Assembly (NCBI GenBank): GCA_002281755.1
Contig: NCHB01000019.1
Coordinates: 1 to 35,721 of the forward strand
DNA: 35,721 nucleotides
Direction of reading: 5' to 3'
DNA from: Sulfurovum sp. 16-42-52
GTDB taxonomy: Bacteria; Campylobacterota; Campylobacteria; Campylobacterales; Sulfurovaceae
Shown: one piece after another, positions 6,652 to 19,321 of the stretch
How positions within the stretch are numbered: position 1 is the stretch's first letter
Layout of the letters: every line of letters starts with the position of its first letter
The notes under the pieces: generated by a model
Databases searched by the model: none
The model's input: only the letters and a program-made list of their open reading frames with translations
What the model was told of the DNA's origin: nothing
Translations under genes and position numbers: made by a program

Positions 6652-7674
6652 ATGAAACGTTCTGTATTACTTGCTACTACGTTGTGTCTTACTTCATTTT
6701 TGTCCGCTGCCCCATCCATCGCAGATACGGCTAAACAAAACGGTCTTGTGGCAATACCGCAAGATCACAAAGAACTTCTTAAACTAACTGACCCCAACAG
6801 CACCATCACACCTGAAACAGTAGAACTCGGTAAAAAGCTCTACTTTGAACCTAGACTCTCAAAAAGTGGTATCATCTCTTGCAACACTTGTCATAATCTT
6901 GGATTGGGTGGAGCAGACGGTGTGAGCGCAGCAGTAGGACACCAGTGGACTCCAAACCCGCACCATCTTAACTCACCGACTGTGTACAATGCGATGTTCT
7001 TTAAAGCACAGTTTTGGGATGGCAGAAGCCCGCATCTTGAAGATCAGGCACAAGGACCTATGCAGGCAGCACCCGAAATGGCAGCAGCACCTTCTCTTGT
7101 TGTAGAGAGAATCAACTCTATCCCTGCCTATGTTGAGGAGTTTAAAACAGCGTACGGCAAAGATGTCAAGATTGATTTTGAAACCATCACGGCTACTATA
7201 GGTATCTTTGAGAGAACTTTGGTGACACCTTCACGATTTGATGATTTTCTTAACGGTAAAGCGGACGCACTGAGTGATGCTGAGAAAAAGGGTCTTCAAA
7301 CTTTTATGGACAAAGGATGTGTATCATGTCATACAGGCATCGCACTTGGTGGTACGATGCAACCGTTTGAAGTAGCAGGAAAATACAAATTTGCCGCTGT
7401 AGGTGACTTCAAAGGTGATAAAAACGGTATGGTCAAAACACCGACACTTAGAAACATCACAGAGACAGCACCCTACTTTCATAACGGGGCTATCTGGAGT
7501 CTTGCTGATGCCGTTAAAGAGATGGGAAGCACACAACTGGGCATAGAGATAACTGATGAAGAAGCGGCACAGATTGTCACATTCTTCGGTGCACTTGAAG
7601 GCAGAAAACCAGAGATTACTTACCCGCAATTTCCTGCTAGTACAGCCACAACACCTAAACCTGACTTTAAATAA
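6652..7674 (+). CDS. Periplasmic di-heme cytochrome c peroxidase
   Basis: Reduces hydrogen peroxide to water in the periplasm with electrons from cytochrome c. Seen: 340 residues with an N-terminal signal peptide (basic MKR, hydrophobic core, Ala-rich cleavage region near residue 25) and two c-type heme sites, CNTCH at 77-81 and CVSCH at 223-227, in the N- and C-terminal domains typical of the CcpA/MauG family. The late motif KTPTLRNITETAPYFHNG is also characteristic. Length matches the 320-350 of bacterial peroxidases. The Shine-Dalgarno AAGGAA lies 8 nt before the ATG. A terminator follows directly, so it is monocistronic. MauG-like enzymes are an alternative, but the motif pattern favours the classical peroxidase. 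Confidence 0.95.
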   Translation: MKRSVLLATTLCLTSFLSAAPSIADTAKQNGLVAIPQDHKELLKLTDPNSTITPETVELGKKLYFEPRLSKSGIISCNTCHNLGLGGADGVSAAVGHQWTPNPHHLNSPTVYNAMFFKAQFWDGRSPHLEDQAQGPMQAAPEMAAAPSLVVERINSIPAYVEEFKTAYGKDVKIDFETITATIGIFERTLVTPSRFDDFLNGKADALSDAEKKGLQTFMDKGCVSCHTGIALGGTMQPFEVAGKYKFAAVGDFKGDKNGMVKTPTLRNITETAPYFHNGAIWSLADAVKEMGSTQLGIEITDEEAAQIVTFFGALEGRKPEITYPQFPASTATTPKPDFK

Positions 7675-8687: not shown

Positions 8688-10202
8688 ATGAAATTTACAG
8701 ATTTTAACCTCAAAGAGACTATCCAAGCTGCTATTACAGAAGCTGGATTTACAGAGCCTTCACCGGTACAAAAAGATGCCATTCCACTCATCCTTGAAGG
8801 GCATGACATTATCGCTCAGGCGCAAACAGGAACAGGAAAAACCGCTGCATTCGGCCTTCCTACCATGTCTATGATGAAAGGCGATGGAAGTGTAGAAGGA
8901 CTGGTCATCGTCCCTACCCGTGAACTTGCGATGCAGGTCAGTGATGAACTCTTTCGTTTTGGTAAACTCTCAGGTATCAAAACAGCAACAGTGTATGGCG
9001 GTACTGCTTACGGTCAACAGTTAGAGCGTATCAAACAGGCGTCTATTGTCATCGCAACGCCGGGGAGACTTCAAGACCTCCTCATGAGTGGCAAGGTCAA
9101 AATGAGCCCCAAATTTGTCATCCTTGATGAAGCAGATGAAATGCTGGATATGGGCTTTTTGGATGAGATCAAAAACATCTTCACTTTCTTGCCTAAAGAA
9201 CGCCAGACATTGATGTTCTCAGCAACCATGCCGAATGCCATCAGAAAACTGGCTGAAGAGATTCTCAATGATCCTAAAACAGTTTCCATTACCAAATCAG
9301 AAAAAACCAATACAAAAATCACACAGTTCTACTATGTGGTACAGGAAAAAGAGCGTGATGATGCGTTGGTAAGACTCATCGACTATAAAAACCCTGACAA
9401 ATGTATCATTTTTTGTCGTATGAAAAAAGAGGTCGATAGACTGGTTGCACACATGACAGCACAAGGATTTAAAGTATCGGGTCTGCATGGCGATATGGAG
9501 CAAAAACAAAGAGAAGTAACGATTCGCGCCTTTAAAAGTGGCGGAATCGATATCTTCATCGCAACCGATGTCGCTGCACGTGGACTGGATGTCAATGATG
9601 TTACCCATGTTTTCAACTACCACATTCCTTTTGATTCAGAGTCTTATGTACACCGTATCGGACGTACAGGACGTGGCGGTAAAACAGGTGAGGCGATCAC
9701 CCTTGTGACACCCAATGAGCTTAAAACCATCAAACGCATCGAAAAAGATGTCGGTACCACGATGACGACTCAGGTTATCCCAACACGTATGGAAGTACAA
9801 AATAACCGTTCCGATGCACTCATTGCTAAAATCGCTGAGACAAAAGTGACGGAAAATGCCATCAACCTTGTCAAAACACTGCAGCATGACCTCGATATCG
9901 TAACCATTGCCCATTTGCTTGCTTCACTGGTACAAGAAGAGAACTTTGTACAAGGTAAAGACAACATCGGTCTTGGGCTCGAAGAGATAGAACTACTCAT
10001 CCAAAGAGCCATGAACAGCAGAAGTGGTGGCAGTGGGGATCGTAGTGGAAACCGTAATCGTAGTGGTGGTGGCGGTGGTTACCGTGGCAACAAACCAAGA
10101 ACGGGCGGTGCCGGCGGCGGCTCCTCAGATCGTCATGGTCGCAACGGACGAAGCAGTGGTGGCAGAGACAGCCGTAACGGCGGACAAGGAAGCAGAGGAT
10201 AA
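8688..10202 (+). CDS. DEAD-box ATP-dependent RNA helicase with RGG-like tail
   Basis: Unwinds RNA duplexes using ATP, likely in ribosome assembly or mRNA turnover, often important in the cold. Seen: 504 residues with a Q motif (Phe3, Gln28), motif I AQTGTGKT (45-52), PTRELAMQ, TPGRLQDL, DEAD (147-150), SAT (178-180), ATDVAARGLD and HRIGRTGRGG from residue 322. From about residue 445 the protein ends in a low-complexity tail of Gly, Ser, Arg and Asn, like the RNA-binding tails of RhlE- and CsdA-type helicases. The ATG at 8688 places the Q motif at the expected distance; an in-frame ATG at 8649 would add 13 residues. Neither has a strong Shine-Dalgarno, consistent with control by the leader. 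Confidence 0.95.
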   Translation: MKFTDFNLKETIQAAITEAGFTEPSPVQKDAIPLILEGHDIIAQAQTGTGKTAAFGLPTMSMMKGDGSVEGLVIVPTRELAMQVSDELFRFGKLSGIKTATVYGGTAYGQQLERIKQASIVIATPGRLQDLLMSGKVKMSPKFVILDEADEMLDMGFLDEIKNIFTFLPKERQTLMFSATMPNAIRKLAEEILNDPKTVSITKSEKTNTKITQFYYVVQEKERDDALVRLIDYKNPDKCIIFCRMKKEVDRLVAHMTAQGFKVSGLHGDMEQKQREVTIRAFKSGGIDIFIATDVAARGLDVNDVTHVFNYHIPFDSESYVHRIGRTGRGGKTGEAITLVTPNELKTIKRIEKDVGTTMTTQVIPTRMEVQNNRSDALIAKIAETKVTENAINLVKTLQHDLDIVTIAHLLASLVQEENFVQGKDNIGLGLEEIELLIQRAMNSRSGGSGDRSGNRNRSGGGGGYRGNKPRTGGAGGGSSDRHGRNGRSSGGRDSRNGGQGSRG

Positions 10203-10229: not shown

Positions 10230-11057
10230 ATGACACAAAAACCAATTTATATCACTGATTTAGACCATACCTTTTTACGTACTGATCAGAGTATCAGTGA
10301 TTTTTCTGCAAACATATGGAATAACAAATCCAAAGACAACATACTCACCATAGCAACCGCTAGAAGCTTTCAAAAGTCATGTGACTTCTTGTCCAAGCTT
10401 CACCTAGATGCTCCCATGATACTTTTGGATGGCAGCATGGTTGTCACACCCGATAAAAAGCTTATCGACATCAAAATTATCTCCAAGCCTTTAGCCGATG
10501 CTATCATCCACGAAGGAAAAAAGTTCAACATTTTACCCTTTATCATCGCGCTTAAAGATATGCAACTCAATGAAGCCTTTTTGTTTCCCACTACACTCAA
10601 TACCCATCAGCATGGTGTACTAGAAAACTACCGTAATGACCCCCGTATGATAGCCTGTGAGACACTCTACGCGATGGAGATGAACCTAAAACTGGTTTAT
10701 TTTGGAGATTTTGAGATACTCAAACCGCTTGCCGTACATTTGCAGAGTGTTTTTGGGAAAGAGCTGGAGTACAAACTTGCTCCTGAAAAATACTCAGACG
10801 GCTACTTTTTAACCATACTACACCCAGAAGGTGATAAAGCCCATGCTCTGCAAAAAGTCATGGAGTATCTAGGACGAGAGGTTGCTGATGTCACAGTATT
10901 TGGCGACAGCATCAATGACATTGGGATGTTTAAACTCGCAGGAACTTCGGTAGCAGTTGCCAACGCACTAGATGAAGTTAAAGCAGTAGCAGATATCATC
11001 CTGCCCCACTCCAACGATGAGGATGGCGTTGCACACTATTTGGATGCGCAACCCTAA
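10230..11057 (+). CDS. HAD-superfamily phosphatase, Cof-like type IIB
   Basis: Predicted cytoplasmic phosphohydrolase, probably acting on sugar phosphates or similar small substrates. Seen: 275 residues, with the nucleophile motif DLDHT (Asp10, Asp12), a motif II region around ILLDGS, and the late acid motif GDSINDIGMF (225-234), which together with the long cap in the middle match the Cof/YidA group. The start is the ATG at 10230; an in-frame TTG at 10221 is less likely. No clear ribosome site is seen. It lies 27 bases after the helicase stop and may be cotranscribed with it. Substrate cannot be told from sequence. Confidence 0.85.
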   Translation: MTQKPIYITDLDHTFLRTDQSISDFSANIWNNKSKDNILTIATARSFQKSCDFLSKLHLDAPMILLDGSMVVTPDKKLIDIKIISKPLADAIIHEGKKFNILPFIIALKDMQLNEAFLFPTTLNTHQHGVLENYRNDPRMIACETLYAMEMNLKLVYFGDFEILKPLAVHLQSVFGKELEYKLAPEKYSDGYFLTILHPEGDKAHALQKVMEYLGREVADVTVFGDSINDIGMFKLAGTSVAVANALDEVKAVADIILPHSNDEDGVAHYLDAQP

Positions 11058-12216: not shown

Positions 12217-12909
12217 ATGCGTGCGCACTACTTACAACATGTACATTTTGAAGGTTTAGGCAGTATCGCGTCTTGGCTTCAAAACAAAGGGTATGAGACC
12301 ACACACACGGCTTTTTTTGATGAACCCACTCTGCCTGAAGCTAAGACCATTGATTTTTTGATCATCATGGGTGGTCCGATGAGTGTCAATGATGAGCCCA
12401 TTTATCCGTGGCTAGTAGCTGAAAAGGCATTTATTCGCGAAGTGATAGCCTTTGGAAAACCTGTTTTAGGCATTTGTCTGGGTGCACAACTCATTGCAAG
12501 TGCGATGGGTGCAAAGATATACCCCAATCCTCAGAAAGAGATAGGATGGTTTCCCATAGAAGCAGTGAGTACTGACAAAAAAGATACCTTTGTTTTTCCG
12601 GCTTTTTTTGAAGTGTTTCATTGGCATGGTGAGACTTTTGATCTTCCATCGGGAGCAAACCTCTTAGCCAGCAGTTCAGGATGTAAGAATCAGGCATTTC
12701 AACTGGGAAAAAATGTGATGGGATTGCAGTTTCATCTTGAAATGACAGCTGATTCCGTCAAAGAAATCATCTCACATAGTCGTGATGAACTGACTTGCTC
12801 AGTGTATATCCAAAGTGAAGAAACGATGCTCTCTGCCTCACCACAGCACTACACGGATAATACAAAATGCCTGTATGACATTCTTGAGTATTTAACGCAA
12901 CAAGGCTAA
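12217..12909 (+). CDS. Class I glutamine amidotransferase domain protein
   Basis: Stand-alone glutamine amidotransferase of the GMP-synthase-like class; releases ammonia from glutamine, probably for an unidentified partner synthase, or hydrolyses gamma-glutamyl compounds. Seen: 230 residues with the nucleophile Cys87 in GICLGAQ, an oxyanion region at MGGPMSVND, and the catalytic pair His173/Glu175 in LQFHLE. AAGGAGAG lies just before the ATG. It is divergent from pstS (151-bp gap, 12066-12216, with no clear feature apart from their ribosome sites) and its stop overlaps that of murU on the other strand by 4 bases. No synthetase domain is attached. Confidence 0.88.
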   Translation: MRAHYLQHVHFEGLGSIASWLQNKGYETTHTAFFDEPTLPEAKTIDFLIIMGGPMSVNDEPIYPWLVAEKAFIREVIAFGKPVLGICLGAQLIASAMGAKIYPNPQKEIGWFPIEAVSTDKKDTFVFPAFFEVFHWHGETFDLPSGANLLASSSGCKNQAFQLGKNVMGLQFHLEMTADSVKEIISHSRDELTCSVYIQSEETMLSASPQHYTDNTKCLYDILEYLTQQG

Positions 12910-13574
12910 TAACGGTTTAAAAGCTGTGCATTGAGCTGTTCAAGTCTTTGGGGTGTGCCGATGTCCAACCACTCTCCTTCATAGAGTTCTCCTGTGACTC
13001 TTCCCTCTTTCATCGCAGCTCTCAGTAAAGGCGCTAAAGCACTTTTGCCATAAGGCACTCCTTCAAAAAGCTTTGGTGAATAGTAGCCTATACCTGAAAA
13101 AGTGTACTGTTTTACATCCACCACATGGTTACCGTCAAGCGCAAAGTCACCTTCGGGGTTATGTTCGGGGTTTGGTACCAAGATAAGATGCGCCAAAATG
13201 CCATCAGCCAGTTTTCTGTTTGCCTGAAAATCATAGTCTGTCCAAATGTCACCATTGAGCACCAAAAAGGTCTCTTCTCCTAGTAGTGGTAACGCTTTGA
13301 TGATGCCCCCTGCACTCTCAAGCCCACCCTCTTCTTGTTCATCTGAGTAGATGATGTTCACTCCCGATTCTGAGCCATCACCAAGAGTCTGAGGAAAGAG
13401 ATAGCCCAAATGCGCGATATTGATGACTACTTCCGTAAAATCATCATGCGCCAAACGCTCCAAATGCCAGACAATAAGCGGTATGCCTCCAACTTTAAGC
13501 AAGGGTTTGGGCGTTACATCAGTGAGGGGACGCATGCGCTCCCCGAGTCCTGCGGCTAGTATCATGGCTTTCAT
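12906..13574 (-). CDS. murU: MurU-like sugar-1-phosphate nucleotidyltransferase
   Basis: Predicted to make UDP-MurNAc from MurNAc-1-phosphate and UTP in the peptidoglycan recycling route first described in Pseudomonas putida. Seen: 222 residues, matching MurU, with the nucleotidyltransferase signature LAAGLGERMRPLT then PKPLL (22-26), and a metal-binding VLNGDIW motif. GGAG lies 5 nt before the ATG. It starts 9 bases after anmK in the same direction, so they form an operon. The partner kinase AmgK is not next to it. A role as a mannose- or glucose-1-phosphate transferase is the alternative; the AnmK neighbour supports MurU. Confidence 0.82.
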   Translation of the reverse strand: MKAMILAAGLGERMRPLTDVTPKPLLKVGGIPLIVWHLERLAHDDFTEVVINIAHLGYLFPQTLGDGSESGVNIIYSDEQEEGGLESAGGIIKALPLLGEETFLVLNGDIWTDYDFQANRKLADGILAHLILVPNPEHNPEGDFALDGNHVVDVKQYTFSGIGYYSPKLFEGVPYGKSALAPLLRAAMKEGRVTGELYEGEWLDIGTPQRLEQLNAQLLNRY

Positions 13575-13583
13575 TTTAACTCC

Positions 13584-14669
13584 TTATTCATAGATGCCAC
13601 CTAGTATGGTATTTTCACACGCACCTGTGACATCTTTGAGATTGACTTTTTCTTTATGGATGCGTTTGTAGGCTAACCATGCAAAGGTCATCGCTTCTAG
13701 CTCATCCGCATAGTCTGCTATGCGTACTTCAGTGTTTGGCATCAGTGCTTTGAGTCGCTCTACCAAAAAACAGTTTTTAGCGCCACCACCACACAAGATA
13801 AGCACATCTGTGTTAAAACGCAATACTTCGTTGCTGATGCTAAGAGCGGTCAGTTCAAGTAAAGTACGCTGTACATCTTGCTCTAAAACCAGTGAACATA
13901 CGCCAGAACCTCGTCTTGTCAGCATATCATCCAACCAGACTTTGTTAAACTTCTCCCTACCCGTGCTTTTGGGGTATGATAATTTAAAGTAGCTATCAGA
14001 TCGCATGGCATCCAAAAGTCTCTCATCCACACTTCCTGTTTTTGCCCACGCCCCCTCTTTATCGTATGCGCTCCCTTGATGCTCTGCTATCCAACTATCT
14101 AAGAGGACATTGCCACAACCGGTATCGTACCCCACAAGAGTCTCTCCCAATACCGTGATGTTTGCCATTCCCCCGATATTTACTATGCATACAGAAGCGT
14201 TGATACTACCAAATATAAACTCATGAAAAGCAGGTGCAAAAGGTGCACCCTGCCCACCTAAAGCGACATCTTTTCGTCTAAAATCGCTGACTACGGGTAT
14301 GCCTGTTTGGGATGTCAAGATGTTGGGGTCACCCAGTTGCATCGTCACGCCATTTTGGGGCGCATGCCATAGGGTTTGCCCATGTAACCCAATGGCTCTA
14401 ATGCTCGTGGCATCTATATTGTGACGCGTCAGTAAAGCATCCACAGCCCCAGCAAACAAGACTCCCAAACGATGGTCTAACTGCCCTACTTGCTCCAGGG
14501 TGCTGTTGCCCTCTATCATCATTAGTATCTCAGATTTGAGTTCCAATGAGAGCGGGTATTCTAGTGAAGCGATAAGGGCACAAGCGCTTGCATCTATCTC
14601 ACAGAGTACCACATCTACGCCATCGAGTGATGTACCCGACATAATGCCTATATAGCGTTCTTTATGCAT
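13584..14669 (-). CDS. anmK: Anhydro-N-acetylmuramic acid kinase AnmK
   Basis: Hydrolyses the 1,6-anhydro bond of anhydro-MurNAc and phosphorylates it to MurNAc-6-phosphate in the cytoplasm, part of cell-wall recycling. Seen: 361 residues, with the N-terminal IGIMSGTSLDGVD (GTSLDG 12-17), GLHGQTLWH, a long conserved block containing SDFRRKDVALGGQGAP, and INIGGMANIT plus GYDTGCGN, all diagnostic of AnmK. The ATG at 14669 is preferred to a GTG one codon upstream; GAGG lies about 10 nt before it. Upstream of murU in a two-gene operon. Confidence 0.95.
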   Translation of the reverse strand: MHKERYIGIMSGTSLDGVDVVLCEIDASACALIASLEYPLSLELKSEILMMIEGNSTLEQVGQLDHRLGVLFAGAVDALLTRHNIDATSIRAIGLHGQTLWHAPQNGVTMQLGDPNILTSQTGIPVVSDFRRKDVALGGQGAPFAPAFHEFIFGSINASVCIVNIGGMANITVLGETLVGYDTGCGNVLLDSWIAEHQGSAYDKEGAWAKTGSVDERLLDAMRSDSYFKLSYPKSTGREKFNKVWLDDMLTRRGSGVCSLVLEQDVQRTLLELTALSISNEVLRFNTDVLILCGGGAKNCFLVERLKALMPNTEVRIADYADELEAMTFAWLAYKRIHKEKVNLKDVTGACENTILGGIYE

Positions 14670-14796
14670 CACTTTTTGCCTCTATTTTTATCTAAGTTTA
14701 TCCTCTTCTCTCTCAAAGGGAAATGAACGCAGGCGGACTTAAAAAAATCATGGTATTCTTAGAAAATTTGACCCAATATTATAGCAAGGAAGACAC

Positions 14797-15213
14797 ATGA
14801 CATATTCTGAATGGTTTTATCAACACGGTGACAAACACAAAGTTATCATGGATAGACTTGAGCATCTAGGAATGGATGAAGTGATCGAATACTTTAGGTT
14901 TGAGAACATGGTAGAAAATGAGCCTGACTTTTGTGAACTGTATGCAGAAAACAAAAAATGTCATGATATTGCAGGACTCAACTGCTACCTCTGCGCCTGC
15001 CCTCATTTTAGATTTAAAGACAAAGGCTTTAGTATGCGCGAAGATAAAATGCTCTATTCTGTTTGCAGCATCAACTCCAAAGAAGGCGGACGCTTCATCA
15101 CAGAAGATGCCATCCACCAAGACTGCTCAAAATGCTACATACCCCACAGAGAATCCTACATTAAAAATGTGTTTGATAGAGACTGGTTTGAGATAATGGA
15201 GAATGTGTGTTAG
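14797..15213 (+). CDS. Cysteine-rich small-domain protein, function unknown
   Basis: Function unknown. Seen: 138 residues with nine cysteines at 46, 55, 63, 66, 68, 90, 110, 113 and 138. The core pattern (CHDIAGLNCYLCACPHF, then GGRF and DCSKCYIPHR) resembles the Pfam cysteine-rich small domain PF04071, which is thought to bind metal; this family call is from memory of the motif. It has neither signal peptide nor membrane segment, so a cytoplasmic metal or Fe-S protein is likely. AAGGAAGACACATG gives a good ribosome site. It is a single plus-strand gene between two minus-strand groups, next to the AIPR gene. The upstream gap 14670-14796 carries a T-A-rich stretch but no clear promoter. Confidence 0.8.
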   Translation: MTYSEWFYQHGDKHKVIMDRLEHLGMDEVIEYFRFENMVENEPDFCELYAENKKCHDIAGLNCYLCACPHFRFKDKGFSMREDKMLYSVCSINSKEGGRFITEDAIHQDCSKCYIPHRESYIKNVFDRDWFEIMENVC

Positions 15214-15215
15214 GA

Positions 15216-15275
15216 ATCTTGAACACTATCTAGGTATATGATTTAATCCATTCTGTATCAGCATCTTGAACACTA
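15216..15275. repeat. Pair of 13-bp direct repeats beside the AIPR gene
   Basis: ATCTTGAACACTA occurs at 15216-15228 and again at 15263-15275, a period of 47 bp, starting two bases after the stop of the Cys-rich gene. A shorter repeat, AATCCAT, follows each copy (15245-15251 and 15278-15284) at different distances. No coding potential is seen here. Confidence 0.75.
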
Positions 15276-15319
15276 CCAATCCATAGCTCAACGTATATTT
15301 AGGACCGTTATCATAAGCA

Positions 15320-17011
15320 TTAACCTTGTAACTCATTCTTTGTTACAAAACCCATTTCTCTATCAAGATCAGTCCTAGACTTTGAGGCTTTAAAATATCC
15401 ATTATGAGAGTATGTTAAATTTTTGCCTTCTAAAAACTTCTTTTCATTTTCAATAATAATACGTATTGTATCGCAAACCTTAGGATATGAGATTTCAAAT
15501 TCTTCATTTTGTTTATAAATTCCATATGCTATAAGTTCATCAGAATATTTAATGAAATCTGTTTCTATGTTTTCATTACGCTTATTAACTACAAATTTAT
15601 ATATTTGATATGCTTTTAGTAATTGTTCGTAAATTGGTGAATCTTTTGAACCGTTAAATAAACTATATAGTTTATTGGTGCTATCACTACTTGCTTCAAA
15701 TATCCATTCTAAGAGTTTTGATTTTGAGTTTTTTGCAAACTCAGGTAACTCTTGGTATGTTGCATACCAGTATTTAAAAACTGTATCACTATGTACTGAC
15801 TCTTTTAATTGTTTGCTTAGACTATTTTCAAAAGTATCTCCTCTTTTTGCTAGAAAACCTATATTGTTTGACTCAAAAATAGCTTTTGTGTATTTGATAA
15901 AATTTTTGTTACTTATCTTATCTCTATAGTTAATGGGAGATTGTGTATTTGTAGCATCTGTAATTTTGTCTACAATGACTGGATCATTTGTCTCATATAG
16001 TCTTATCAATACATAAACTCCATCTAATTTATCACGATCTTTTTGATACATATCATAGATAACGCTTGTCGTTTGAAGTCCGTTAACAATAACAGGATTT
16101 TTTGTTTCAATCGGATAATATCCAGCTTGTATGTCATTTGGTATTTTTAGTTGTTCTGATATTATTGTAATTCCGTTATTTAAAAAAGGGAAGTATTCAG
16201 AATAATCACTCTCTAGTGTCTCTTTAATTTTTTTATTTGTTTTGTTGTATTTCAAAAAACCTCTAATGTTATCGCTAAAAACTGTATCTATTCGCTGGTT
16301 TATATTTTTTTCTTCATCCAATAAAGCACATAAATCAAGTGCTTTTAGTCTAAAATTAATTGCTTTAACATTTTGAATTTGAAATGAAATTAATGCTTGA
16401 GGGTCTTTTCTTAATGAGATATTTGATTTTTCTGCCATAAAACTAAACTTAATATCTTTACGTTTTTTATGCTCAGAAATAAGAGTGTCAATTCTATTGT
16501 ATAAGTCATTTATATCATAAATTGAAAGTTCATTATTATCATCAAGATGTCTTTGCATTATTTCTTGATCATTTTTTTCTTTTTCTCCTGAGAATATAAA
16601 ATATAATTTCACGTCTACGATTTTACCTGAGGAAACAATACTTGTATATCTTTCTAAAAAAGATTGAACTTTTGAATTTAGAGGGATATTTAAGCTATTG
16701 CCATAAGCAAAAATATTTCTGTAATCATTAATAAATTTCGAGAGTACATTATCGCCTAGACCTTTTGAGTTTTTAATTTGAAAAACATGCATAGTACATT
16801 CATTTTCATCTTCATCAATAAATATTCCATCTATACCACCGTCGTGTTCACCATTTCCATTAACAATAGTGCTAATGTTTTGAAAAACTTCATCAAAACT
16901 TTGATCTAGAAGAGTTGTAATGGCTAAAATTTCAAAGGCAAAATCTTTACGGAGTGAGAATTTTTTTTCTATTCGTTCAATATAACCGTTAATGAATAAC
17001 TCTTTGTTCAT
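15320..17011 (-). CDS. AIPR-family protein with N-terminal PD-(D/E)XK nuclease domain, predicted phage defence
   Basis: Predicted defence protein. Seen: 563 residues. The N-terminal region carries a restriction-endonuclease-like core: GGIDG with Asp61 and, after a beta strand, QIK with Gln78 and Lys80, as in Mrr-like nucleases. From about residue 225 the AIPR (abortive infection phage resistance) domain follows, with DNIRGFLKYN (247-256), FPFLNNGITI (274-283), NPVIVNGLQTT (305-315) and TDATNTQSPI (351-360). GAGGATTTTACATG is a good start. The gene is strongly AT-rich: 27 of 120 sampled bases (15481-15600) are G or C, against 57 of 120 in the flanking samples 13441-13500 and 18301-18360. That and its solitary state suggest horizontal gain. 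Acts in the cytoplasm on nucleic acid; the trigger is unknown. Confidence 0.88.
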   Translation of the reverse strand: MNKELFINGYIERIEKKFSLRKDFAFEILAITTLLDQSFDEVFQNISTIVNGNGEHDGGIDGIFIDEDENECTMHVFQIKNSKGLGDNVLSKFINDYRNIFAYGNSLNIPLNSKVQSFLERYTSIVSSGKIVDVKLYFIFSGEKEKNDQEIMQRHLDDNNELSIYDINDLYNRIDTLISEHKKRKDIKFSFMAEKSNISLRKDPQALISFQIQNVKAINFRLKALDLCALLDEEKNINQRIDTVFSDNIRGFLKYNKTNKKIKETLESDYSEYFPFLNNGITIISEQLKIPNDIQAGYYPIETKNPVIVNGLQTTSVIYDMYQKDRDKLDGVYVLIRLYETNDPVIVDKITDATNTQSPINYRDKISNKNFIKYTKAIFESNNIGFLAKRGDTFENSLSKQLKESVHSDTVFKYWYATYQELPEFAKNSKSKLLEWIFEASSDSTNKLYSLFNGSKDSPIYEQLLKAYQIYKFVVNKRNENIETDFIKYSDELIAYGIYKQNEEFEISYPKVCDTIRIIIENEKKFLEGKNLTYSHNGYFKASKSRTDLDREMGFVTKNELQG

Positions 17012-17056
17012 GTAAAATCCTCAAATTTATTTTATTAATAAATATATTTTGCTTTA

Positions 17057-17065
17057 TTCTACCAT
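17057..17065 (-). promoter_or_regulatory. Extended -10 promoter of the AIPR gene
   Basis: On the minus strand TGG-TAGAAT (17065 to 17057) is an extended -10 box about 45 bp before the AIPR start. No strong -35 is seen. The rest of the gap 17012-17126 is AT-rich and otherwise featureless. Confidence 0.4.
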
Positions 17066-17126
17066 AGTATCATTCACTTGAACATATTAAAACTACATAC
17101 AGATAAATTTTATAGCCTTAAAAAAT

Positions 17127-18647
17127 TCACTTTTTATTCTTCCCACCCATCATCACCCCAAACGCGACAATCGTGCCAATGACTATCTGCCATGCAAAGC
17201 CGATTTTGAAGCCTAAGAATGTGCCGATGCCCTCACCAAACACATAAGGTTGAAGCAGCAATACAGTCATAAACCCACCGATAAGCGCAAAGGGTACCGT
17301 GGTAGCATTGCCCCGCTTAGTAAAAAGTGCTGCGCCATACACACCCAAAAGCCCTGTATAGGCAAATCCCATCACACCTAGAGCAAAGCTCAGAAGAGGA
17401 AGTCCTGAGTAGCGTTGCCAGTAGTAACTGAGCATCGCCATTACACACAGCGCCATAGCAAACACTAAGATGGAAATCCTGCTGGCTTTGACATAGTACA
17501 TCTCATCTTGCGGTGATGTGTTCTGCTTCCACGGCTTATAGATGTCTTCGATGGCTACTGAAGACATCGCGCTCAATACAGAGTTGATGCTCGATAGTGC
17601 AGCTGCCACCGCACCTACTGTTACAAGCCCACGCATACCCTCAGGCATTTCATGTAAGATGTAGTACATAAAGATGGTGATTTTTTCTCCTTCAAATTGC
17701 TGTACTACTTCTGTATGCAGGTGTGAAAGTTCGGGATGATGGTAAAAAAGATATAGCAGTAACCCTATGCATAAAAAAAGTAAAGCTACGGGAATCGTGA
17801 TATAGATACTTGCCATCAAAGAGTTTTGTGCCTCTTTGACATTTTTACAGGTGAGTGCCTTTTGTGTCATATCTTGATTGAGACCGTAGGCGGCGATGTT
17901 CAAAAGAAGCCATCCACCCAATAGTGCCCAAAGTGAAAACTCACCAGACAAGGAGAAATCTAACAATTTTAACTTCTCTTCGTGATGCAATGTCCCAATC
18001 ATGGTTGCAAAATCGGCATCAAGGCTTATATAAAGATATATCAAAACGGCTATACCTGCACCCACATAGGTGATGGCTTGTATGATATCTGAAAATATGA
18101 TTGATTTCACACCGCCAAAATAGACATACGCCAACGCACCAAACATCAAAATGACAATCGATATGCCTACATGCATCGCGGTAATATCTAAGAAAAGTAT
18201 CATAGAGATAGCCAGTGAGCCGATATAGAGTCTCACACCTGCAGCAAAAAGCTGTCCTACTAAAAACATCATCCCCGTCTGTTTTTTCGCCGATGCACTG
18301 TAACGCACCTCAAGCAACTCATACACGGTTACGGCATTGATGGCATAAAAACGGGGTATCAGTACTTTAGCAACAAATATCACAGCTAGAAAAGCAGAAA
18401 TATAAAACCCTAAAAAAGTAAGGTCTATGGTGTAGGAAAATTCCGGTGCACCCAAAAATGTTGCTGCTGATTGGGATGTTGCCAAAACAGAGATGGCTAC
18501 GGCAAACATCGGTACAGAGTTGCCTCCTACAAAATAGTCCCTTGTAGAACGTATCTTGCCTTGGCTTAGTAGTACAGAAGTGAAGATAAGTACCAAAAAA
18601 TAGACAACAAAAATAGCCCAATCAAGCGCAGCAAAAGCACTCTGCAT
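17127..18647 (-). CDS. Sodium:solute symporter (SSS family)
   Basis: Inner-membrane sodium-coupled importer. Seen: 506 residues with about thirteen hydrophobic segments in SSS arrangement, the early DYFVGGNSVPMFAVAISVLATSQSA motif region (family-typical glycine and Na+-site serines), and SSINSVLSAMSS later. Length matches the family. The ATG at 18647 overlaps the amidase stop by one base (TGATG), showing translational coupling, so symporter and amidase probably work together. Substrate not determinable; the coupling to a peptidoglycan amidase and closeness to AnmK/MurU suggest a cell-wall sugar or peptide (inference). Some SSS members carry sialic acid or other amino sugars. Confidence 0.9.
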   Translation of the reverse strand: MQSAFAALDWAIFVVYFLVLIFTSVLLSQGKIRSTRDYFVGGNSVPMFAVAISVLATSQSAATFLGAPEFSYTIDLTFLGFYISAFLAVIFVAKVLIPRFYAINAVTVYELLEVRYSASAKKQTGMMFLVGQLFAAGVRLYIGSLAISMILFLDITAMHVGISIVILMFGALAYVYFGGVKSIIFSDIIQAITYVGAGIAVLIYLYISLDADFATMIGTLHHEEKLKLLDFSLSGEFSLWALLGGWLLLNIAAYGLNQDMTQKALTCKNVKEAQNSLMASIYITIPVALLFLCIGLLLYLFYHHPELSHLHTEVVQQFEGEKITIFMYYILHEMPEGMRGLVTVGAVAAALSSINSVLSAMSSVAIEDIYKPWKQNTSPQDEMYYVKASRISILVFAMALCVMAMLSYYWQRYSGLPLLSFALGVMGFAYTGLLGVYGAALFTKRGNATTVPFALIGGFMTVLLLQPYVFGEGIGTFLGFKIGFAWQIVIGTIVAFGVMMGGKNKK

Positions 18648-19321
18648 CAATCACTTCCCGGAGCGCGTTTAAGCCCCAAGTTTTTGGTTTTACTAAACAC
18701 TTTTTGCACAAATGTATCCCCCGGATCATTTTTAGCTGTTCTATATCCTGTGTCTTTTTCAAGCCAAAGTGGTGTTTTCTCCATCGTTCTGTATTCATGA
18801 TGACCGACAAGGTACTCGATGCTCGGGTATTTGTTTTTGAGGTAGCGTACCAACGCAATGTTGGAAGCCATCTGTGCAGGTGTGAGGTCATCTTTACTAT
18901 CACCATGCCCCCCTACATTTTCGATGCCGATGCTTGAGTAGTTGAGTCCTATGACATGTCGCGCCATCCAATTCTCTGGCATTAAGCGGTAAATCGTTCC
19001 ATCTCGTGCGACCAAAAACTGCGCTGAGACATTGAGCGCAGAGGCTTGCATGATGTCTTTTCTGTCTGAGAGCAGTTTTTCAGGCTTTAGCCGCGCAAAT
19101 GATTTAACTAAATCCATCTCCGCCGTCCAATGCAATAAGATAATCTTAGGCGTTATCCGTATGGTGTCTGTCGTGATACCGTAATGCGATTTGATATACG
19201 CCTTGGTCATCTCGATGCGCTCTTTACTAAAATCAATAGGTTTATCTATGATGGTGATGTCTGCAATAGCACACGTAGCAAGTATGAAATAAGTCAGTGA
19301 TATCAATAAACGGTGTTTCAT
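18647..19321 (-). CDS. Periplasmic N-acetylmuramoyl-L-alanine amidase (Amidase_2)
   Basis: Zinc amidase that removes peptides from muramic acid residues. Seen: 224 residues with a signal peptide (MKHR, hydrophobic stretch to Ala20) and the Amidase_2 fold: zinc ligand His64 in ILLHWTA, Glu134 in GIENVG, His174 in VGHHEY and Asp199 in NDPGD. The Amidase_2 class includes AmpD and phage T7 lysozyme; here the signal peptide places it in the periplasm. The ATG at 19321 has AGGA 8 nt upstream; an ATG at 19330 would lack a site. Followed by the coupled symporter, preceded by a membrane protein gene. Confidence 0.92.
   Translation of the reverse strand: MKHRLLISLTYFILATCAIADITIIDKPIDFSKERIEMTKAYIKSHYGITTDTIRITPKIILLHWTAEMDLVKSFARLKPEKLLSDRKDIMQASALNVSAQFLVARDGTIYRLMPENWMARHVIGLNYSSIGIENVGGHGDSKDDLTPAQMASNIALVRYLKNKYPSIEYLVGHHEYRTMEKTPLWLEKDTGYRTAKNDPGDTFVQKVFSKTKNLGLKRAPGSD

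Follow-up and report, generated by a model that had tools for sequence, protein, structure and literature searches.

A horizontally acquired, stand-alone AbiU/AIPR-family gene of Sulfurovum sp. 16-42-52 with a probable role in phage defence

Contig NCHB01000019.1 of Sulfurovum sp. 16-42-52 (assembly GCA_002281755.1; the whole 35,721-nucleotide stretch analysed is referred to here as the window) carries on its reverse strand an AT-rich open reading frame (ORF) of 563 amino acids (positions 15320-17011, ATG start), and the locus raises the question of whether this gene could serve as an anti-phage system on its own, and how it came to its present site. An original prediction, made from the sequence, had described it as an AIPR nuclease gene and a candidate single-gene defence system. 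Our analysis makes it fairly probable that it is a horizontally acquired, stand-alone AbiU/AIPR anti-phage gene, the product of which would combine a PD-(D/E)XK nuclease with a ParB/sulfiredoxin (Srx)-like domain and a helical tail and would be gated by nucleoside triphosphates (NTP). AIPR/AbiU proteins are a widespread defence-associated family, for which neither a solved structure nor an agreed mechanism was found in this analysis; the residue set, two predicted folds and six partner-free copies described below make the gene a directly testable one-gene system.

The AIPR assignment was borne out by Pfam, with domain PF10592 covering residues 245-522 (profile positions 1-299 of 308) at an E-value of 1.1e-41 and 144 bits, against a cut-off of 25. 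Furthermore, the PADLOC profile for AbiU matches residues 2-490 (E 4.5e-42, 142.9 bits) over positions 1-467 of its 537, a span that includes the nuclease part in the AbiU match. Judged by these profiles, the window protein is a member of the AbiU/AIPR family. A plasmid-encoded protein of Lactococcus, which scores 590 bits as AbiU, is 24% identical to the window protein and has the same invariant residues. AbiU1 confers phage resistance in Lactococcus. The window protein shares with this AbiU a profile match over most of its length, the AIPR motifs, a GxD...QxK motif and the form of a single gene on mobile DNA; it differs in its low identity (~24%) to the plasmid relative, in belonging to another phylum and in having no recognised AbiU2-like neighbour. 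MzaE of the MZA system (NF041935) likewise has the AIPR core (window residues 244-371), but assignment as MzaE was rejected, since the window protein reaches 28.4 bits against an equivalog cut-off of 1050 and MZA partner genes were not recognised nearby.

The N-terminal part had been proposed to form an Mrr-like nuclease core joined to the AIPR domain, and alignment and structure prediction both agree with this proposal. GGIDG from residue 58 and QIK from residue 78 place Asp61 and Lys80 where they were originally read, and across an alignment of 27 proteins (the query and others 15-93% identical to it) D57, D61, Q78 and K80 do not vary, so that D61, Q78 and K80 provide the D...(E/Q)xK active-site pattern of PD-(D/E)XK nucleases. 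Residues of the AIPR domain are invariant in the same set as well, including N248, R250, most of NNGIT, N-G-Q-T and N-Q. The ratio of non-synonymous to synonymous substitution rates (dN/dS) between the window gene and five homologues is 0.035-0.10, which indicates strong purifying selection maintaining the protein.

AlphaFold2 (AF2) models were built on the 27-row alignment, and their domains were compared by VIA-align and Foldseek. Residues 1-179 (positions 16475-17011, reverse strand) form a nuclease-like domain, in which the alpha-beta-beta-alpha-beta core order is present in a model of moderate confidence. VIA-align returned for this domain a coherent PD-(D/E)XK set containing several phage-defence effectors, namely FokI (Z 8.8, over 149 residues at a root-mean-square deviation of 4.3), N.BspD6I (8.1), MspJI (8.0), Avs4 (7.5), HamA (7.5), Card1 (6.3) and Shedu (5.5). 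These comparisons support a predicted Mrr-type PD-(D/E)XK endonuclease fold. The following part, residues ~212-361 of the AIPR region (PF10592; positions 15929-16378, reverse strand), is tentatively predicted to be ParB/Srx-like: for a model of residues 206-563 alone, with a predicted local distance difference test score (pLDDT) of 83.8 and a predicted template modelling score (pTM) of 0.73, the first 17 VIA-align matches all belong to the ParB/Srx superfamily, at middling Z-scores of 4.7-6.4, with ParB, Noc, sulfiredoxin, SspE, a DndBCDE-DndI entry and BrxU/GmrSD among them. It carries the motifs NNGIT (residues 278-282), NGxQT (310-314) and TNxQ (354-357), of which NGxQT seems, in the model, to lie at the strand-helix junction where ParB has GERR. 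The C-terminal region (residues 362-563; positions 15320-15928, reverse strand) is mostly helical in the AF2 models, and no clear fold match was found for it.

Horizontal acquisition, which the original prediction had read from base composition, is supported by several lines of evidence. The gene has a G+C content of 0.272 and, at third codon positions, 0.174 (GC3), whereas same-length stretches of the remaining window average 0.436 (standard deviation 0.017, minimum 0.375), a difference far from chance; the contrast thus holds, while the 22 versus 47 percent first quoted came from a short sample that exaggerates the gap. Across all six copies of the gene discussed below G+C is 0.25-0.29, with flanks of 0.30-0.44. 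Alignment to the corresponding locus of a relative (genome G031, locus L044), the CarB of which is 95% identical to that of the window genome (G000), delimits an insert of ~1.93 kb (positions 15214-17138) containing the AIPR gene alone. G031 represents the empty site, with 18 nt in place of the insert: window positions 12226-15212 correspond to L044 1-3001 (89% identity) and positions 17139-18691 to L044 3020-4572 (88%). The nearest relative by CarB (G016, 98%) was unusable as a second empty site, as its contig stops just past the sodium:solute symporter gene that adjoins the insert. To the left of the insertion point lies a gene for a Cys-rich protein (14797-15213, forward strand; weak PF04071 match below the cut-off), which is 97% identical in L044 and 77% identical in locus L048. 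It was rejected as a partner of the AIPR gene, since it is a resident that occurs in G031 without the AIPR gene; of the original statement on neighbours, the lack of an adjacent partner stands and the reservation made for the Cys-rich gene falls.

The homologue survey comprised the window genome and 77 others of the genus (n = 78), followed by 399 genomes of the order. Of roughly 470 Campylobacterales genomes, six, G000 included, carry a close homologue. Within the genus there are two carriers (2/78), G000 and G073 (78% identical); outside it, four were found among the 399 genomes, namely Sulfurovum sp. FS08-3 (G158, of the same family as G000; 94%), a Campylobacteraceae metagenome-assembled genome (MAG; G105, 89%), G142 (74%) and Sulfurospirillum sp. 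SCADC (G129, 72%), the last two belonging to one genus. The corresponding CarB identities to G000 are 83% (FS08-3), 72% (MAG), 88% (G073) and 75% for both G142 and G129, so that for two carriers, FS08-3 and the MAG, identity to G000 is higher in the accessory gene than in the housekeeping gene. In the comparisons of the window with the other five carriers, shared DNA stops at the ORF ends or close to them, and the flanks are different in all six. The few carriers, the empty site, the excess of AIPR over CarB identity in FS08-3 and the MAG and the deviant G+C all agree with transfer as first proposed.

No shared partner gene was found beside the six close homologues, and no restriction-modification (RM) or Dnd gene was recognised there, which supports the view that the gene stands alone in every close locus examined. 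Upstream of the window gene, a ribosome-binding site (GAGGA, 17018-17022, reverse strand) was read by eye 6 nt before the ATG, and an extended -10 promoter-like element (TGGTAGAAT, 17056-17064, reverse strand) was likewise read by eye, without statistics. Reading the five remaining loci in this way showed similar extended -10 elements ahead of the gene; as they precede all copies, the AIPR gene probably brings its own promoter. More distant relatives, again single genes, are plasmid-borne or lie in a P2-like prophage, where the relative is annotated as 'abortive infection protein, prevents superinfection'. Close alignment yielded no relatives in viral contigs, and a broad-alignment search of these contigs gave 49 distant loci. 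The AbiU family name together with the distant relatives in plasmids and P2-like prophages suggests an anti-phage role.

In two of the other carriers the gene has the form of an integron cassette. In FS08-3 (locus L055), five attC-like sites of a single polarity (6679-6747, 7383-7439, 9239-9307, 9744-9799 and 10543-10612) frame a MazF/PemK-type gene, the AIPR gene, a GNAT gene and an MNT-HEPN pair (cassette names assigned by eye); no integrase lies near this array (L055 6679-10612). In the MAG, an attC site follows the AIPR gene (L056 160-216). The aligned sites of both genomes share TAACAAA...TCA..CGTTA, and in both the AIPR cassette starts with GTTAGAA, the exact complement of its own attC R'' (TTCTAAC), a match that a circularised cassette should show. 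In the inner stem (CACCGA-A-CAGG/CCTG-TCGGTG), as seen in sequence and folds, the R'' side carries one base more. On the strength of an attC site after the ORF, an array, uniform polarity and R'' complementarity in FS08-3, and of the matching site and cassette start in the MAG, the AIPR gene of these two genomes is identified as an integron cassette with its attC. The attC model used (R1) describes sequence without base pairs, RNAalifold having found none. A simple scan for stem and R boxes gave many chance matches (3-8 per region in shuffles), and the attC sites used were therefore confined to those that the aligned array and model R1 also back. R1-like sites outside the training set were found in G073, G142, G129 and G105. 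An Rfam search gave no attC match, the curated cut-off for IntI (TIGR02249) was reached in no carrier, and the tyrosine-recombinase matches to the IntI model in G000 are low-scoring and far under that cut-off.

Integrons are known as stores of phage-defence genes from references given in PMC12444791 and PMC13092281. The anti-phage integron cassettes cited in PMC12444791 (doi 10.1126/science.ads0768, 10.1126/science.ads0915 and 10.1038/s41564-025-01927-7) resemble the FS08-3 and MAG copies in being single-gene cassettes of defence families with an attC site; as cited there, those reports concern Vibrio and mobile integrons, whereas the window copy has no detectable attC. No relevant paper linking AIPR with integrons was found in the literature library searched. 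The modest new point is that one defence gene has the cassette form in two Campylobacterota, whereas in others it is inserted alone in the chromosome. With the cassette copies, the little-studied integrons of Campylobacterota join the sites of storage and transfer of phage-defence genes, and in the window such a defence-family gene has settled singly in the chromosome. Neither these cassette copies nor the AbiU identity, the likeness of the AIPR domain to a ParB/Srx fold or the insertion sequence (IS) relics at the junction had been part of the original prediction.

At the window insert itself no attC model match was obtained (the best, at E 1.1, lies elsewhere in the window), and with the best candidates per genome scored, G000 has no attC site at E 0.01. 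A decayed attC was not found on either strand of 15214-15319. The repeats in this interval were rejected as such a remnant because they are IS256 ends: the stretch from the Cys-rich gene stop to the AIPR gene contains two direct copies of ATCTTGAACACTAYC (15216-15230 and 15263-15277). The second copy of the IS256-type tip (ATCTTGAACACTATC, 15216-15230, forward strand) directly follows the Cys-rich gene stop, and the other belongs to the relic of an IS256-family element end (15237-15277, forward strand) with its tip towards the AIPR gene. Local alignment of this relic to 41 bases of the IS256 end scored 37, compared with 27 for the best of 500 shuffles. The word ATCTTGAACACTAYC occurs at two other places in G000, one of them a contig end, each time as the tip of an element; IS256-family ends lie in G000 at L147 1-957 and L148 2580-2678 (contigs C6 and C43). 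A nearby ORF fragment encodes an IS256-family transposase (NF033543, E 2.3e-26; below the cut-off because truncated), and behind it lies a degenerate copy of this end. It is probable from these remains that one or two IS256-type elements, now worn down, formerly lay 3' of the AIPR gene. The gene may have entered its site by IntI action at a non-attC site, with an IS, or by homologous recombination; IntI insertion at non-attC sites has been described as attG integration (doi 10.1038/s41564-023-01548-y, as cited in PMC12444791).

The reading proposed for the window gene has as its likeliest mode of action an NTP-gated nuclease contained in a single protein. The ParB/Srx-like domain would bind nucleotide and/or DNA and, on a trigger arising from infection (DNA that is of phage origin or modified, or a shift in the nucleotide pool), would release the nuclease with its active site of Asp61, Gln78 and Lys80; the released nuclease would then cut DNA and stop phage production, either directly or via death of the infected cell. 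With what is probably its own extended -10 promoter, the gene would need no neighbour. It travels among Campylobacterota as a one-gene module: at least two genomes carry it as an integron cassette, and the window has it as a 1.9-kb insert next to relic IS256 ends. SspE is described in PMC13251355 as an effector in which GTP hydrolysis is the switch for DNA cleavage, and GmrSD is a ParB-HNH restriction enzyme (PMC12839542). The window protein resembles SspE and GmrSD (BrxU) in uniting a ParB/Srx-like domain and a nuclease in a single protein and in the fold of its ParB-like part; there, however, an HNH nuclease follows the ParB-like domain, whereas here a PD-(D/E)XK nuclease precedes it. By analogy, a similar working principle may apply without membership of those families. 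It is a tentative and rather doubtful extension that AbiU/AIPR proteins in general are single-gene NTP-gated restriction factors, counterparts of SspE/GmrSD with an exchanged nuclease, which circulate in Campylobacterota as integron cassettes able to settle outside integrons and later to lose attC.

Several results weigh against the proposed reading. The full-length AF2 model is of moderate confidence (pLDDT 76, pTM 0.55), the ParB/Srx-like matches reach the middling Z-scores given above, Foldseek alone returned no match below E 0.001 for either model, and no solved AIPR structure was found by sequence with either the single sequence or the 27-member profile. Given that no attC was detected in the window, entry into this site by the integron route is no more than possible. 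Furthermore, an older paper reports AbiU1/AIPR genes as frequent near RM systems and calls the N-terminus a HEPN RNase (PMC3506569), which would imply a different mode of action and possible partners.

The least improbable of the alternatives, although we regard it as rather unlikely, is that the protein is no stand-alone effector and would instead serve, in the manner of DndB, as a regulator or accessory of a modification/restriction system whose genes lie elsewhere in the genome. In favour of it, PMC3506569 places DndB in the AIPR family (AIPR/ParB superfamily) and reports that AIPR genes often lie near RM systems, PMC4507180 describes DndB as a regulator, and the AIPR-domain model aligns with a chain from the DndBCDE-DndI study over 259 residues at Z 5.3. 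DndB acts inside dnd operons, however, and no dnd operon was recognised at the window locus; neither RM nor Dnd genes were recognised beside any of the six close homologues, the complete nuclease motif is under strong purifying selection, and each copy has a promoter-like element upstream. That the gene is selfish or stabilises plasmids in the manner of a toxin (an addiction module) is quite unlikely: the insert contains no antitoxin-like ORF, none is conserved beside any copy, and the match to the AbiU profile extends over most of the protein. In favour of this reading are the position of the FS08-3 copy among toxin-antitoxin-type cassettes and the abundance of toxin-antitoxin genes in integron cassettes (PMC8618304). 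That the N-terminal domain is a HEPN RNase acting on RNA in abortive infection, as in the older AIPR paper, appears very improbable given the invariant GxD...QxK motif and a model that has the PD-(D/E)XK element order and aligns with restriction enzymes; the survey of HEPN proteins in PMC3710099 names, in the passages considered, AbiU2 and not AbiU1/AIPR, and a HEPN N-terminus is not supported for the window protein by sequence and model. An old, vertically inherited housekeeping gene with deviant base composition, in favour of which no point was found, is refuted by the homologue and neighbour search that the original prediction had suggested, with close homologues in only two of the 78 genus genomes, the empty site in G031, different flanks in each of the six carriers and identities across genera and families above those of CarB; the vertical conservation across the genus that would have overturned the original prediction is therefore not seen.

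On the other side of the insert from the Cys-rich gene, the resident sodium:solute symporter gene (PF00474; 17127-18650, reverse strand) is present in 67 of the 78 genus genomes. Its 3' flank is a variable spot in the genus, occupied by the AIPR gene in the window and by other accessory genes in relatives (L051 3524-5784 and L048 3973-4505), among them, as named by eye, a HipBA-like pair with a GNAT-like ORF in G073 and a RelE-like pair in G010. R1-type attC sites at E <= 1e-8 occur in 34 of 200 order genomes and 24 of 70 genera, often as one or two chromosomal sites, which suggests widespread integron relics or single-cassette insertions. In G073 (contig C170), an intI-like pseudogene interrupted by four in-frame stops (L139 8542-9753) lies ~0.8 kb from an attC site and apparently represents, with it, a dead integron, and at a contig end of G105 there is a C-terminal fragment resembling IntI. 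In G142, the same IS256 end is found 3' of another cassette-like gene (L142 2640-2681), where an 825-residue ORF lies between an attC site and the IS256 end (L142 2640-5411), an arrangement that echoes the window junction.
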